From: Synechococcus sp. UW140
GTDB taxonomy: Bacteria > Cyanobacteriota > Cyanobacteriia > PCC-6307 > Cyanobiaceae
Length of the DNA: 64,000 nt
Direction of reading: 5' to 3'
Assembly: GCA_945877115.1 (NCBI GenBank)
Contig: CAMCQR010000001.1
Span: 1 to 64,000, forward strand
How positions within the stretch are numbered: the first letter of the stretch is position 1; every line of letters begins with the position of its first letter. This document shows positions 53,782 to 62,539 of the stretch, one piece after another. The notes beneath the pieces are model-generated. The model saw only the letters and a list, made by a program, of their open reading frames with translations, was not told the origin of the DNA and did not search any database. The position numbers and the translations under genes were made by a program.

Positions 53782-54132
53782 ATGCGCCACCAGTGCCGCG
53801 TCCCCCTGCTTGGACGACCCGCAGACCAACGCAAAGCCTTGCTTCGGGGTCTTACGACCCAATTGATTCGCGAAGGTCGTGTCACCACCACCAAGGCCCG
53901 TGCCAAGGCCCTTCGTGATCAAGCCGAACGCATGATTACCCTGGCTAAGGAAGGAAGTCTTGCATCAAGGCGCCTAGCGATTGGCTACATCTACGATAAG
54001 CAACTCGTTCACGCTCTTTTCGATAAGGTGCCCGACCGCTACGGCGATAGAAACGGTGGTTACACAAGGATTATTCGTACCGTACCCCGTCGTGGCGACA
54101 ACGCTGAGATGGCAATCATAGAGTTGGTCTGA
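53782..54132 (+). CDS. rplQ: 50S ribosomal protein L17
   Basis: [42 protein letters not shown]. Confidence 0.97.
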
Positions 54133-54956
54133 ATCACCCCCGTCGCATTGCCCTCTGCTTTCAGTACGATGGCAGTCCTTTTTCAGGTTGGCAACGCCAA
54201 TCCAATGCTTCCTCTGTGCAATCTACATTGGAGGATATTTTGGATCAATTAGAGTCCGGTGTGCGCCATTCTGTTGTCGCTGCCGGCAGGACTGATGCCG
54301 GAGTCCATGCTGCGGCTCAAGTGGCCCATTTTGATTCCGTGGGTCCAATTCCTTCCCATCGTTGGCCTGCAGCGCTCAACGGTCGTTTGCCGCAAACGAT
54401 TCGCGTCCGTGCAGCTGCTGAGGTCTCCAGCACATGGCATGCTTGTTATAATGCACAATACCGGCGCTATAGATATACAATCTATAATGCACAAACTGCT
54501 AATCTTTTTCTTGCTCATTGGAGCTGGCATCGATATAAAAAAAGATTGGACGAACACTTGATGGCGGCTGCCCTCGCAGATATTGTTGGCGAGCACGATT
54601 TTTCTGCTTTTCAAAAGGCAGGTAGTCACCGAGCCCATTCCCGCACAACCGTCCAGGACGTGAGTCTGGTTCGCCAGGGGGATTTGTTGGTTGTGGAAAT
54701 TCAGGCCAGCGGATTTCTTTATGGTATGGTCCGTTTATTGATGGGGCAGATTGTTGCCGTTGGTGAGGGTTCTCTTTCCCTGGATAACTTTATAAGCCGT
54801 TGGCGCAGGCGAGCCCGCCATGAAGTCCGCGAGGCAGCACCTCCTAAGGGCCTGTGTCTTCTTCGGGTCGGCTATCCAACGGTGATCTTTCCGCCTGGTC
54901 TATGGTATGATAGTCAACCGAGATTTCTTCTCGACTCGCACGATAAGGCGATTTAG
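54129..54956 (+). CDS. truA: tRNA pseudouridine38-40 synthase, apparent CTG start overlapping rplQ stop
   Basis: Manual in-frame extension: (L)[63 protein letters not shown]; the conserved YDGxxFxGWQ motif lies upstream of the ORF-track start at 54216. Confidence 0.85.
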
Positions 54957-56447: not shown

Positions 56448-57563
56448 ATGGATTCAGACCTTCTTAGTGAACGATTGGAAACGACCTGTCGCACGTTTGA
56501 AGCCCTGGAGCGTCAATTGGCCGATCCTTCTCTCGCGACGAATCCAAGCCAGCTGCAAGCCCTCGCCAAGGAGAGGGCCAAGCTTGAGCCGATGGTCCTT
56601 GATTATCAGAAAATGCTCCGATTGAAGTCGGAGCAAATCCAGGCTCGCGATCTTTTGCGTCAATATCGAGGCGATCCTTCCGGCCATGAGTTGCTTGAGT
56701 TGGCTGCCGATGAAATCGACATCCTGGAACAGGAGTTGGTTGGCTTGCGCCAGAGACTTTTATTGGCCATGGTTCCTTCCGACCCTCGAGATGAGCGAAG
56801 TGTCATGTTGGAGATTCGTGCAGGAGCCGGTGGCGATGAAGCGGCTCTTTGGGCCGGCGATCTGGCCCGTATGTATGAGCGTTATGCCCAGAGTAGGGGT
56901 TGGATAGCCCAGCACTTAACTGTATCGGAGTCGGATCTGGGCGGGTATCGTGAACTGATTCTGGCGATCCGAGGCGAAGGTGTCTATAGCCAGTTGAAAT
57001 TTGAGGCTGGAGTGCATCGTGTCCAGCGGGTTCCGGCCACCGAGTCCCAAGGTCGCGTCCACACTTCGACGGCCACCGTGGCTGTGATGCCTGAAGTGGA
57101 TCCTGTGGAAGTGCAGATTGAGCCTGGAGATTTGGAGATCAGCACAGCCAGATCGGGCGGGGCAGGGGGGCAAAATGTTAATAAGGTTGAGACGGCTGTG
57201 GACCTTTTGCACAAACCAACCGGGATTCGGGTCTTCTGTACCCAGGAGCGTAGTCAACTGCAGAATCGCGAGCGGGCCCTTGAGATTCTTCGGGCTAAGC
57301 TTTATGATCGGGAATTAGCTTTAGCTAATGCTGCCGAGAGTTCGGCACGGCGTGCCCAGGTGGGAAGTGGTGATCGAAGTGAAAAGATTCGAACCTATAA
57401 CTACAAGGATAATCGCGCTACTGATCACCGCCTTAATAGACATTTTGCGCTCGATACTGTGCTTACCGGTCAGCTTCAGGAACCCATTGAGGCCTGCATC
57501 GTGGCTGAACAGAGTCGCCAGTTAGAGGCCCTTGCCCGTGAGGCGATGGGAGTTGACGGATGA
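56448..57563 (+). CDS. prfA: peptide chain release factor 1
   Basis: [64 protein letters not shown] (GGQ). Confidence 0.97.
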
Positions 57564-57580: not shown

Positions 57581-58081
57581 TTACTCGTCAATTAGATATT
57601 TAGCCCACTGTTTGTTCCTGCCGGCACGAATCTGGCGATTGGCTTCGAAGCTGAGGCTGCTCAGCGGCCGATGGGGGGCGCGAAGCAATGCCATGCCGGC
57701 TTCCCGGGGTGTGCGGTTACCCTTGCGAACATTACAAGGAAGGCAAGCGGTAGTTACATTATCCCAACTGTTGTTACCACCACGGCTGCGAGGCTGAACA
57801 TGGTCGATCGAGAGCTTTTCTCCGTTATAACCGCAGTATTGACATGCGTGACCGTCGCGCTGGAAAATGTTTCGCCGAGTCAGCGGCAGTTGGCGGTAGG
57901 GAACACGAACGAATTGACGCAGCCGGATCACGGTGGGTCGCATTTGATCTGGCCGCAACAAAGATGTTGGGTCGTGTTCAAGCCCTTCCGCCTTGCCTTT
58001 CAACAACATCACCACCGCACGCTTCCAAGTGGTGATGTTGAGGGGCTCGTAGGAAGCATTCAGAACGAGAACATGGCCCAT
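57581..58081 (-). CDS. HNH endonuclease
   Basis: RDGHACQYCGYNGEKLSIDHVQPRSRGGNNSWDNVTTACLPCNVRKGNRTP. Confidence 0.92.
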   Translation of the reverse strand: MGHVLVLNASYEPLNITTWKRAVVMLLKGKAEGLEHDPTSLLRPDQMRPTVIRLRQFVRVPYRQLPLTRRNIFQRDGHACQYCGYNGEKLSIDHVQPRSRGGNNSWDNVTTACLPCNVRKGNRTPREAGMALLRAPHRPLSSLSFEANRQIRAGRNKQWAKYLIDE

Positions 58082-58179
58082 GCCAGCCCCCTAGGCAATT
58101 TAAATCCTAACCACGGTCTTGCAGGATGGTGGTGTGCTTTGTCACAAGGCCTTCCCAATCTTCCCCAGGTTCGACTCCA

Positions 58180-60666
58180 ATGGCGATGACCCTGCCCCGA
58201 GGACTTGATTTGGCCCGAATCCTCGGTGCCGACTTGCGCGATGCCGCCCCTGACATTGCGATTGATCGTGTAGTGATTGATTCGCGCCGGGTCCAGCCAG
58301 GGGATCTTTTTGTGGCCCTCAAAGGGCGGCACCAGGATGGCCATAACTACGTGCCAGCGGCCTTGGGGGCTGGGGCGGCTCTCGTGCTCGTGGCCCGTGG
58401 GATGGGTTGGATCGACGACGTGCCTCGGCTTGTGGTCGAGGACCCCTTGCTGGCCCTGCAGAAGCTCGCGGCCTGGTATCGCAGCAACTATCTTCCCCAG
58501 GTGGTTGCGATCACCGGTAGCAATGGCAAGACAGTGGTCAAGGACGCCCTTGCCGCCTGCTTGACAGCTCGTTTCCGGGTGGCGGCCAGCCCGGGAAGCT
58601 GGAACAGCCAGGTGGGAGTGCCCTTGGCCGTTCTAGGTGCTCCGCCTGGAAGTCAGATTGGTGTGTTTGAAGCCGGGGTCTCGGCCCCAGGAGAAATGGA
58701 GGCCATCGAGGCCATCCTGCGTCCTGATTACGGCGTACTTGTGAATGTGGGACTTGCCCATTTCGCCGCCTTCGGGAGTCGCCAGGCGATTGCCCGCGAA
58801 AAGATGGTTCTCTTCCGTCATCTCCCCGCTTCCCATTGGTTGATCGCCCCGGCTGACCCCCTGCTTGAGGACCTGCCCCTGGCCTGCGAGCGGGTCCATC
58901 CCGGCAAGGACTGGCCCCGGCTGATCGCGCGTCGTCCCACCGCTACCGGTTTTGCCCTCAATCTGCAATTTGCGGATCAGCAGTTGACATTGCCGGTGCG
59001 GACCCGTTCCCTGCCCTTGGTCGAGGATCTCCTGATTGCGATGACGGCCGCCCTGCGCTTGGGCCTGGATCCCACGCACATCGTTGGCGCCCTTGAGGAC
59101 TACGGCTTTGGGCCGACCCGCATGGAGACCTGGAGCACACCTGAGGGAATCACCATCATCAACGACACCGCCAGCAGTGATCCCCTTTCGGTCCAGGCGG
59201 CCCTGGATACCGTCGCCGCGACCCCGAGCACCGGCCATCGGCGCCTGTTTGTTTTTGGGGGCATGGCTGATCTCGGTGCCCAGGAACACCGCGAGCATGG
59301 CTTGATAGGTCGGGTCGCCGCCGAGCGGGGCTTCACGCACCTGTTGCTGTTGCCCCACACCGCCAGTGGTTCCACCTGTGCTGGCTGGTTGTCGTTGCGT
59401 CCAGAGGCCTCGCTTCTCCAAGTGCCTGATTGGCAGGGTCTGCGGCACCAAGTCCGGGAACTGGCCCAAGCCGGGGACCTGGTGTTGATGAAGGCAGCGG
59501 CTGCTGAGGGACTTGAGGTCACGGCGACAGCCATCTGGGAATCCATGGCGCCCCGGAGGCTGTTCATTGATCTGGGCGCCATCCGGGAAAATGTGGCTCG
59601 CTTCCGAGCCCTTTCGGGCCCCAGGGTGGCCATCCTGGCCGTTCTCAAGGCCTGGGCTTACGGCACTGAATTGCCTCGGCTGGCGCTTGCCTTGCAGGCA
59701 AGCGGGGTGGATTGGATCGGTGTCTCTACGGCTGATGAGGGCGCGCTGGCCCGTCGTGCCGGAATCCGGCTACCGATCCTGGTCATGCTGATGGACCGGG
59801 AGGAGGTCGACAAGGTCGTGCGCTACGGCCTCACCCCTGTTGTTTACTCGCTTCCCTTGGCTCGGTCCCTGGTCGAGACGCTCCGGGACATGGGGGCCGA
59901 GTGTGACGTGCACCTCGAAGTGGATACGGGGATGGGGCGTCTTGGCGTGTCTCCCGAAGAGGCTTTGGCGACGGCCCGACTCTTGCGCGGCTCTGGGGTG
60001 GTGCGCCTACGGGGTGTGATGACCCATCTCGCCGGGGCCGACGATCCGGCCGCTGATCGCCATAGCGATCAGCAATTGACCCGTTTTGATCAGGTTGTGG
60101 CAGCCATCCGGTCCGAAGGGGATGAACCCCTTTGCATTCATGCCGCCGCCACCTCCGCCGCCGTTCGTTTCCCAGGGGCTCGCTACGACATGGTCCGGTT
60201 AGGCCTGGGGTTGTTCGGTATCGCCCCTTCGTGTGAAGTGGCTGAGGCTATTGAACTGGAGCAGGCGCTGGCCTTTGTGAGTCGCCTTGCCCAGGTGGCC
60301 ATGTGGCCCCGCGGTCAACGGGTGGGTTACAACGGCTCCTACGTCGTTGACCAAGAGAAGCAGAGAATTGGCATCGTGGCGGCCGGATACAACGATGGCG
60401 TTCCCTGGCGGCTGTCGAATGCGGGTGCGGTTCTGGTTCAGGGCCAGACAGCCCGGATCCTGGGCAGGGTGTCGATGGATTCGATGGCAGTCGATCTGAC
60501 GGCTGTACCCGATGCGGCCGTGGGGGATGAAGTGCTGATTTTTGGAAGTCACCAGGGCCAGGTCCTCCGACCCGAAGAAGTGGCCGCCCGTGCTGGCAGC
60601 ATTCCCTACGAGCTGCTTGTCAATGTCGACAGCAGGAGGGTGCAGCGCATCTTCCGCAACGACTGA
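58180..60666 (+). CDS. bifunctional MurF-type ligase / alanine racemase fusion
   Basis: N-half Mur ligase: VVAITGSNGKTVVKDAL, SPGSWNSQVGVPLAVLGA, GVFEAGVSAPGEM, NVGLAHFAAFGS. C-half (from ~59549) Alr: RRLFIDLGAIRENVARF, AVLKAWAYG (PLP Lys), VDTGMGRLGV, GYNGSY, GRVSMDSMAVDLT. One uninterrupted frame. Confidence 0.9.
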   Translation: MAMTLPRGLDLARILGADLRDAAPDIAIDRVVIDSRRVQPGDLFVALKGRHQDGHNYVPAALGAGAALVLVARGMGWIDDVPRLVVEDPLLALQKLAAWYRSNYLPQVVAITGSNGKTVVKDALAACLTARFRVAASPGSWNSQVGVPLAVLGAPPGSQIGVFEAGVSAPGEMEAIEAILRPDYGVLVNVGLAHFAAFGSRQAIAREKMVLFRHLPASHWLIAPADPLLEDLPLACERVHPGKDWPRLIARRPTATGFALNLQFADQQLTLPVRTRSLPLVEDLLIAMTAALRLGLDPTHIVGALEDYGFGPTRMETWSTPEGITIINDTASSDPLSVQAALDTVAATPSTGHRRLFVFGGMADLGAQEHREHGLIGRVAAERGFTHLLLLPHTASGSTCAGWLSLRPEASLLQVPDWQGLRHQVRELAQAGDLVLMKAAAAEGLEVTATAIWESMAPRRLFIDLGAIRENVARFRALSGPRVAILAVLKAWAYGTELPRLALALQASGVDWIGVSTADEGALARRAGIRLPILVMLMDREEVDKVVRYGLTPVVYSLPLARSLVETLRDMGAECDVHLEVDTGMGRLGVSPEEALATARLLRGSGVVRLRGVMTHLAGADDPAADRHSDQQLTRFDQVVAAIRSEGDEPLCIHAAATSAAVRFPGARYDMVRLGLGLFGIAPSCEVAEAIELEQALAFVSRLAQVAMWPRGQRVGYNGSYVVDQEKQRIGIVAAGYNDGVPWRLSNAGAVLVQGQTARILGRVSMDSMAVDLTAVPDAAVGDEVLIFGSHQGQVLRPEEVAARAGSIPYELLVNVDSRRVQRIFRND

Positions 60667-60843: not shown

Positions 60844-61761
60844 TTAGGTGATGAGTCTGCCGGCGATTTCCGGCAGCAACCTTTTGTAATTTGCGGAGCG
60901 TTCATCTTCGCTCAGGACAATCAGAATCATCGGAGTCCCTGCTTCAGTTTCCACATAGGCGGCTTCGTGTCTTGCCTCACCCATCCAGCTTGATTTGCCC
61001 CAAATCCGGGCCTTGTGCCCAAGGGCTGCGGCTGCAAAGCCAGTCACCTCTTTGGTCTCAGCTGGGTTCGCGCACCTTTCCTCCGAGGGTTGCTCAAGCA
61101 GGCTTTGCAGCCTGCGACATGCGGGCGGCGAGATGAGGGATCCGGCCATCACAGCCTCCAACAACCTGGCCAGGCCGTCAGTGCTCAGGAGGTTGCGGTT
61201 GCTTTGATCGGCGCTGTGGAAGTCCTGCTCACGGCCGTAGGTTCCATCCACCCAGGTTTTCTGACAGGCCTTCCAACCCACCAGCTCGGGCCAGCCAAGG
61301 CTCTCAAGCCAGTGGTTCACCAGTTCTCGTTGGGTCTTCCATTGGTTGTAACAATCCTGGGGGAGGGACGGCCCGCTGGTGGTGCCGCTTAGGAGATCCA
61401 CAATCAAGCCGGTGGCCCAATGCGCTGAGGTCGAAGGACGAACCATGGCTGCCATGGCCCTCCTTAATTCCGGTTCATCTCTCAATAACTGACGTTGCAA
61501 CCAGGCCTCACAGGCCACCAGATAGGTGAGATTGACGAGGCTGGCCGGCTCCCGCAGTTGGCTTCCCCGCCAGCCCGCTCCCGCTCCCGCTGCGGCCCCT
61601 AGGGCTAAGGCCTCGTGGGTCTCTCGGTCGCGCAGGGATTCGGCATAGCGCAGCCAGGTGATGGATATCCGGGCCCCCAGTCCAGGCCTGCCCTCCTGTT
61701 CCAGGGCACGGACCAGATCCGCGAGCCTCTGGCCCATGGCCGGATCCGCGCTGTAGAACGC
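60844..61761 (-). CDS. serine hydrolase / class A beta-lactamase-like protein with degenerate catalytic motifs
   Basis: Likely start MAFYSADPAMGQRLADLV; SQLREPASLVNLTYLVACEAWL; AAMVRPSTSAHWATGLIVDLLSGTTSGPSLP; WGKSSWMGEARHEAAYVET. Confidence 0.7.
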   Translation of the reverse strand, partial: AFYSADPAMGQRLADLVRALEQEGRPGLGARISITWLRYAESLRDRETHEALALGAAAGAGAGWRGSQLREPASLVNLTYLVACEAWLQRQLLRDEPELRRAMAAMVRPSTSAHWATGLIVDLLSGTTSGPSLPQDCYNQWKTQRELVNHWLESLGWPELVGWKACQKTWVDGTYGREQDFHSADQSNRNLLSTDGLARLLEAVMAGSLISPPACRRLQSLLEQPSEERCANPAETKEVTGFAAAALGHKARIWGKSSWMGEARHEAAYVETEAGTPMILIVLSEDERSANYKRLLPEIAGRLIT

Positions 61762-61798
61762 CATGATATTTGGCCCATCAGCGATGAAGAGATTAGAC

Positions 61799-62539
61799 AT
61801 GCGCGGTTCAATGCCCATGCTTGCCAGTGGAGCGATCTGGCAAATCAGCGAACCCCTGTCCGGCTGGAGTCGCCCGCAGGGCGATGCGCTGGCCACCGAA
61901 TTGGCAGTGGGTCGCCGGTTGCGGCTGCTTGAACCGGCCCCCTATCCACCACGAGAATCAGGGAGCTTGCGTTGGCGGGTGCGCCTGCTGGAGGATGGTT
62001 ATCCCTGCTGGTTAGATGCCCAGGCGCTGTTAAGCCATGGTCAACCCTCTGAGTCTCCGCTGCTGCCCCGCTTGGACCGCAGCACCATCCACGATCGCTT
62101 ACCCCAGGTGTTGAGCATCGCCTTGGAGGCCTTGGCGCAAAAGAACTGTTATCGATGGGGAGGCACGATTGGCCCAAACTACGACTGCTCAGGGTTGGTT
62201 CAGTGGGCCTATTCCCAGGCAGGCATCTGGTTGCCGCGGGATGCCTATCTTCAGGAACGCTTCTGTCGGCCTGTGGCAGTGCGTCCTGACGTTGTGAATC
62301 TTCTGCAGAGTGGCGACCTGATTTTCTTCGGGTCGCCGCAACGCTGCACCCATGTGGGGTTGCATCTGGGCCAGGGCCGCTATCTGCACAGTTCCGGCCG
62401 TGAGCATGGCCGCAATGGATTGGGGGTGGACGATCTGTTCTTTTCGAACCACGATTCAGTGGCCTGCCACTACAGGGCTGAATTGCGGGGAGCCGGTCGG
62501 GTCATGCATAGCCATGACGGCAGTCCCTTGCCCCCTTAA
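61799..62539 (+). CDS. NlpC/P60 peptidoglycan endopeptidase
   Basis: YRWGGTIGPNYDCSGLVQWAYSQAGIWLPRDAYLQ; LLQSGDLIFFGSPQRCTHVGLHLGQGRYLHSSG (C-H-H triad). Confidence 0.9.
   Translation: MRGSMPMLASGAIWQISEPLSGWSRPQGDALATELAVGRRLRLLEPAPYPPRESGSLRWRVRLLEDGYPCWLDAQALLSHGQPSESPLLPRLDRSTIHDRLPQVLSIALEALAQKNCYRWGGTIGPNYDCSGLVQWAYSQAGIWLPRDAYLQERFCRPVAVRPDVVNLLQSGDLIFFGSPQRCTHVGLHLGQGRYLHSSGREHGRNGLGVDDLFFSNHDSVACHYRAELRGAGRVMHSHDGSPLPP

Follow-up and report, generated by a model that had tools for sequence, protein, structure and literature searches.

The closest described relative of the gene analysed here is the MurF–Alr fusion of Bacteroidota, curated as PRK11930 (NF008897). The gene lies in a 64,000-nucleotide stretch of Synechococcus sp. 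UW140 DNA, referred to below as the window, and PRK11930 is its top NCBIfam match, over almost the full model length. The two share domain order, overall length (828 aa for the gene, 822 for the model) and a linker-poor junction. They differ in that the cyanobacterial protein is only 27–29% identical and scores 589 bits, compared with a cut-off of 804 and 1327 bits for a Bacteroidota member. It also lacks the adenine-site Asn and the Tyr-Asn of the C-terminal loop in its MurF half, as well as Asn203 and Arg290 in its Alr half, and it coexists with a separate MurF. The protein is a variant of the already known MurF–Alr fusion; because its score is below the cut-off, we file it as PRK11930-like rather than as a member of the curated family.

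Four further comparisons are useful. With MurF (TIGR01143) the fusion has in common the three Mur domains, the P-loop and the metal-site residues, but it scores 286 bits, just under the cut-off of 288.6, and residues universal in the MurFs compared are missing. With Alr (TIGR00492) the whole fusion reaches 278.5 bits (cut-off, 168) and keeps the catalytic Lys and Tyr, Arg136 and Arg219; it differs by N203A, R290W and the motif KAWAYG in every copy checked, and by the attached ligase half. The MurE–MurF fusion (PRK11929) likewise joins MurF to another enzyme of the pathway, but there the partner is a ligase and not a racemase, and our fusion scores 260 of 1023 bits. MurT, the partner of GatD, is a Mur-ligase fold that acts jointly with a second enzyme, but MurT has no UDP-binding domain and retains the adenine asparagines (PMC6085368, PMC6113224).

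In the open-licence literature searched, we found no paper on a MurF–Alr fusion in cyanobacteria and no study of the reason for MurF and Alr being fused. In in-situ xenologous gene displacement, a foreign gene of the same role enters the slot of a resident gene. The present case departs from this scheme in three ways: the newcomer brings an extra domain, the locus is essential, and exchange has happened several times within Cyanobiaceae.

The fusion gene and its distribution

The plus-strand frame from 58126 to 60666 is uninterrupted over 846 codons, with the stop ending at 60666. By homology, the gene starts at the ATG at 58180 (828 codons) or the one at 58186 (826 codons); an in-frame ATG also lies upstream at 58126. 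The gene and its two halves are as follows.

58180–60666, plus strand: MurF–Alr fusion gene of 828 aa, based on the open frame, its Pfam and NCBIfam domains and the homologues seen in 26 genomes
58180–59556, plus strand: MurF half, residues 1–459 (UDP-binding, central ATPase and C-terminal domains)
59557–60666, plus strand: Alr half, residues 460–828, and the stop (Ala_racemase_N and Ala_racemase_C)

The Pfam domains Mur_ligase, Mur_ligase_M, Mur_ligase_C, Ala_racemase_N and Ala_racemase_C follow one another in this order, every one above its cut-off, which gives the PRK11930 architecture of MurF followed by Alr in a single chain. An earlier sequence-only reading of the window had described one MurF–Alr frame of about 828 codons. 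This frame is real, as judged from its Pfam domains and from the presence of the same fusion in 26 of the 400 Cyanobiaceae genomes searched, and the motifs quoted in that reading (TGSNGKT, KAWAYG, VDTGMGRLGV, GYNGSY, GRVSMDSM, and NDTASSDP replacing NDAYNANP) are all present. The N-terminal half was correctly called a MurF-type ligase: MurF models score highest, which rules out another Mur ligase family (MurC, MurD or MurE). An AlphaFold2 model of the fusion was discarded (four sequences of about 90% identity; mean pLDDT, 43; pTM, 0.33).

The 26 genomes belong to three genera, one of which, g37, has the fusion in 4 of 13 genomes. A sample of 386 genomes across the phylum contained the fusion in three only, all of them Cyanobiaceae.

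The window genome has a separate canonical murF, which lies on a different contig, scores 335 bits and has the motif DETYNASP, and a search of this genome for a second alr found none besides the fusion, so that of the two possible stand-alone genes raised in the sequence-only reading, murF is present and alr is absent. A separate murF was seen in nearly all fusion genomes, the exceptions (G005 and G036) being incomplete assemblies. In G036 the fusion is also 24 residues short in the stretch from the adenine-site motif to the hinge Arg, probably through an assembly fault. Ala_racemase_C occurs exactly once per genome in all 32 genomes checked. A D-amino-acid aminotransferase, considered as a second source of D-alanine, gave sub-cut-off matches only and was rejected. 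Since neither such an aminotransferase over cut-off nor another alr was found, the fusion appears to be the only recognisable source of D-alanine, a component from which the cell wall is built.

Residues and likely function of the two halves

The residues that bear on function are found in these motifs.

58513–58533, plus strand: P-loop TGSNGKT, intact, kept in 20 of 20 fusions
59002–59028, plus strand: TRSLPLVED, replacing the adenine-site motif H-N-x-x-N; the equivalent of E. coli N285 is Asp
59161–59184, plus strand: NDTASSDP, replacing (D/N)DxYNANP in the C-terminal loop; Tyr-Asn lost, Asp kept
59491–59505, plus strand: KAAAA, replacing KGSR towards the end of the MurF half (seen in the alignment; variable among fusions)
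59647–59664, plus strand: KAWAYG, the PLP-lysine motif (KA(D/N)AYG and the like in others)
60139–60153, plus strand: HAAAT; the Asn203 equivalent is Ala (0 of 60 other Alr sequences)
60385–60408, plus strand: GYNDGVPW; entryway Tyr284 kept, the Arg290 equivalent is Trp (0 of 60 other Alr sequences)

Residues K111, N136, E158, H188, K202, R316 and D331 of MurF (E. coli numbering) are kept in all 20 aligned fusions; the conserved features comprise the P-loop, Mg-site Glu, His, carbamoyl-Lys, acceptor Asn, hinge Arg and loop Asp. In the same 20 proteins, N285 is replaced by Asp, Y333 by Ala, and N334 by Ser or Ala, whereas all 32 other MurFs, Bacteroidota fusions included, have Asn at 285 and 334 and an aromatic residue at 333. 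H281 is lost as well, and is absent from the Bacteroidota fusions too. The loop Tyr-Asn is likewise gone from further fusions beyond the aligned 20, the deep-branching G491 and G469 reading NDAASSDP. We dropped the loss of KGSR as a main argument, as deep-branching fusions retain KGPR. In MurT, the asparagines corresponding to the MurF adenine site lie at the adenine, the N267Y form of S. aureus MurT is inactive, and an acidic residue of a C-terminal-domain loop is located at the ribose (PMC6113224, PMC6085368); these roles were transferred to the MurF half by motif.

The MurF half evolves with a dN/dS of 0.11–0.19, mostly higher than that of the Alr half, and in typical fusion pairs is 61% identical, compared with 72% for the Alr half. 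Given these dN/dS values the MurF half is not decaying: it is under purifying selection, and its altered residues are conserved.

The Alr half keeps the catalytic Lys and Tyr265 and the equivalents of Arg136, Arg219, Tyr284 and Tyr354. N203A and R290W are present in 20 of 20 fusions and in further copies, and in none of 60 other Alr sequences. Neither Asn203 nor Arg290 is known to be required for racemisation. Arg290 belongs to the middle layer of the Alr entryway, which is described as highly conserved (PMC3146814, PMC3245724). Substrate access to the Alr half, and perhaps its specificity, may differ from those of other racemases.

These observations modify what had been read from the sequence in three respects. 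The suspicion that the MurF half may not be an ordinary ligase is strengthened by the loss of the adenine-site Asn and the loop Tyr-Asn in all 20 fusions. A role in linking D-Ala synthesis to the addition of D-Ala-D-Ala is now less likely, since the MurF half has lost conserved ATP-site and C-terminal-loop residues and a canonical MurF is present. The Alr half, described as complete, does have its domains and catalytic residues, but Ala and Trp stand where all 60 other Alr sequences have the equivalents of Asn203 and Arg290.

Our best reading is that a working racemase is fused to a substrate-binding pseudo-MurF. The Alr half, with its active-site entryway remodelled, would supply all of the cell's D-alanine. 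The MurF half would no longer ligate in the usual way, but would probably still bind UDP-MurNAc-peptide and nucleotide phosphates and give the racemase an integral domain for structure or for sensing substrate. D-Ala-D-Ala addition would be left to the separate canonical MurF. Two points count against a pseudo-ligase: the catalytic apparatus of the MurF half is largely intact, and other changes might make up for Asn-to-Asp or for the altered loop. MurD-type ligases are not known to carry Tyr-Asn in their loop, which we also count against this reading, as we do the mapping of residue roles from MurT by motif.

The main rival is a bifunctional enzyme: the MurF half would itself ligate, alongside the canonical MurF and supplied directly with D-alanine, possibly with a changed nucleotide or peptide preference (GTP for ATP, or another dipeptide). 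The seven features kept in 20 of 20 copies and the strong purifying selection are what such an enzyme would show, and the conservation of the altered motifs is as expected for a changed rather than a dying site. We nevertheless consider it unlikely, though worth keeping in view, as the adenine-site Asn, the loop aromatic residue and the loop Asn are lost in every copy while being invariant in the 32 other MurFs, Bacteroidota fusions among them, and the same genomes encode a canonical MurF.

Less probable still is a MurF half that acts as a passive scaffold, needed for folding or oligomerisation only, which the Alr half cannot lose. The faster evolution of the MurF half, in both identity and dN/dS, would fit such a role, but its substrate- and phosphate-binding motifs are invariant over 20 copies, and a mere scaffold would have no need of them.

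Origin of the two halves

The MurF half falls into one clade with the Bacteroidota MurF–Alr fusions (support 99/95), in a tree that includes four Bacteroidota sequences and in which both stems are very long (~2.4 changes per column). A first quick MurF tree, which had left the Bacteroidota link unsettled, was superseded by this more careful one, which resolved it. Grouping of the MurF half with native cyanobacterial MurF was rejected (p_AU 0.003). The MurF half and the Bacteroidota fusions have the signatures NSQ, FEAG.S and EK..LF in common, and the PRK11930 profile gives 247 bits for the MurF half and 113 bits for native MurF. The MurF half is, with moderate firmness, foreign and would derive from a PRK11930-like fusion.

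The place of the Alr half is less clear. In the Alr tree the fusion branches apart from a clade that unites the Bacteroidota fusions with native cyanobacterial Alr, but AU tests uphold no firm place: a clade with the Bacteroidota fusions, though absent from the best tree, is not rejected (p_AU 0.44), and a clade with native Cyanobiaceae Alr is borderline (p_AU 0.059). PRK11930 scores the Alr half at 332 bits and the general Alr model at 282; for native Alr the order is reversed (267 and 348). Identity to the native alr of sister genomes is about 34%, no closer than to other cyanobacteria.

The Bacteroidetes-like signatures noted in the sequence-only reading are borne out by the tree and by the rejection of a native origin, the MurF half joining the PRK11930-type fusions in the gene tree. 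Taken separately, both halves lean to PRK11930 by profile, but the tree place of the Alr half is not firm. That reading had left the choice between horizontal acquisition and convergence; the MurF half is most likely foreign, and convergence is unlikely on the MurF evidence. A Bacteroidota donor is not established, given the great length of both stems, the lack of a firm place for the Alr half, and sampling that did not extend to other phyla.

Could the fusion have been born within Cyanobiaceae, from a murF copy joined to the resident alr and then diverging fast? It does occupy the native alr slot (see below), and the clade with native Alr is not formally rejected. We consider this origin very unlikely, as a native place for the MurF half is rejected and this half joins the Bacteroidota fusions, the Alr half is no nearer to the alr of sister genomes than to that of other cyanobacteria, and both halves lean toward PRK11930.

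A scan of genome contigs for a donor, based on a single query sequence, returned near copies only, and three scans of viral contigs returned weak Alr-like matches only and no MurF–Alr fusion. In a plasmid search, full-length MurF–Alr fusions came solely from Bacteroidota. Four of these plasmid fusions (L065, L066, L067 and L068) are flagged at 34–37% identity by a resistance predictor as 'vanT gene in vanG cluster'; this label is probably false, as they look like ordinary housekeeping fusions.

Replacement and exchange at the alr slot

The fusion is flanked in the window by the following features.

56448–57563, plus strand: prfA, conserved upstream neighbour of the slot
57581–58081, minus strand: conserved HNH endonuclease-domain gene at the 5' edge of the swapped segment
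60719–60809, plus strand: conserved tRNA-Ser(gct) at the 3' edge of the swapped segment (64 of 64 loci)
60844–61806, minus strand: beta-lactamase-fold gene (Beta-lactamase2), conserved downstream neighbour
61763–62539, plus strand: NlpC/P60 gene, conserved downstream neighbour

The order at this locus is prfA–HNH–X–tRNA-Ser–β-lactamase-like–NlpC, where X is either a standalone alr or the fusion. Relatives without the fusion have a standalone alr between the HNH gene and the beta-lactamase-like gene, and the fusion fills the same interval. Among 64 genomes, 39 have a standalone alr, 25 the fusion, and none has both. The arrangement prfA–HNH–alr is also found in G046, which belongs to another family of the same class. 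In all 64 loci, tRNA-Ser(gct) lies directly 3' of the racemase gene and forms the 3' edge of the exchanged segment. The HNH gene borders the segment in 64 of 64 loci, whichever version sits there.

A sequencing, assembly or frame error, or contamination, as the source of the fusion is excluded: the window genome is indeed an assembly of 185 contigs, but the same fusion occurs in 26 of the 400 Cyanobiaceae genomes, including G019 (one contig) and G519 (two contigs), and its flanks are cyanobacterial and syntenic.

Some variation surrounds the slot. Four genomes carry ~1.5 to 5 kb of extra DNA beside it: G030 and G026 between prfA and the HNH gene, G033 and G031 on the downstream side of the fusion. 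The block of beta-lactamase-like, NlpC and glycosyltransferase genes that follows the slot has the opposite orientation in G166 and G217 to that in the other genomes. Elsewhere in the window, at 54120–54216 on the plus strand, the frame of truA is intact; its N-terminal stretch has no in-frame ATG, GTG or TTG, and its start may be a rare codon.

Replacement of alr by the fusion at the same place is firmly established. The two versions differ in origin, occupy the same slot between related flanks, and the fusion never occurs with the resident gene, as in in-situ xenologous replacement. The fusion is probably a foreign allele that has replaced the ancestral standalone alr in its own slot, leaving two interchangeable versions of an essential locus.

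The exchange of the two versions among close relatives is equally firm. Slot state changes about seven times on a tree of 12 marker proteins, five of the changes being forced by well-supported branches; the markers come from the ribosomal-protein/prfA region, lie beside the slot and may be exchanged along with it. The gene tree nests the g37 fusions within those of genus g1, beside G019 (support 99), in conflict with the species tree. The sister genomes G570 (fusion) and G554 (alr) are 96% identical over 12.7 kb up to the start of the HNH gene, lose similarity across the racemase gene, and resume it from an identical tRNA onward. G519 and G482 show the same pattern, with flank matches of about 90% and 85%. 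Near-identical sister genomes thus differ at the racemase segment alone. Homologous recombination would bring about the exchange, within conserved flanks formed by prfA/HNH 5' of the gene and by tRNA-Ser(gct) 3' of it. The sequence-only reading had overlooked that the fusion sits in the ancestral alr slot, that alr was replaced outright, and that swapping was repeated within Cyanobiaceae.

If the MurF half is a pseudo-ligase, it might sense UDP-MurNAc-tripeptide and set the activity of the reshaped racemase, a feedback on D-Ala supply, so that regulated and unregulated racemases would be traded among picocyanobacteria via the tRNA-Ser and HNH/prfA flanks; we offer this as a tentative suggestion that is more likely to be wrong than right.

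An essential cell-wall gene that exists in two very different versions in one slot, swapped among relatives, amounts to a natural experiment, in which sister genomes differ at one gene. The fusion makes it testable whether a Mur-ligase fold can become the control domain of a racemase, and why these two enzymes should be fused at all.
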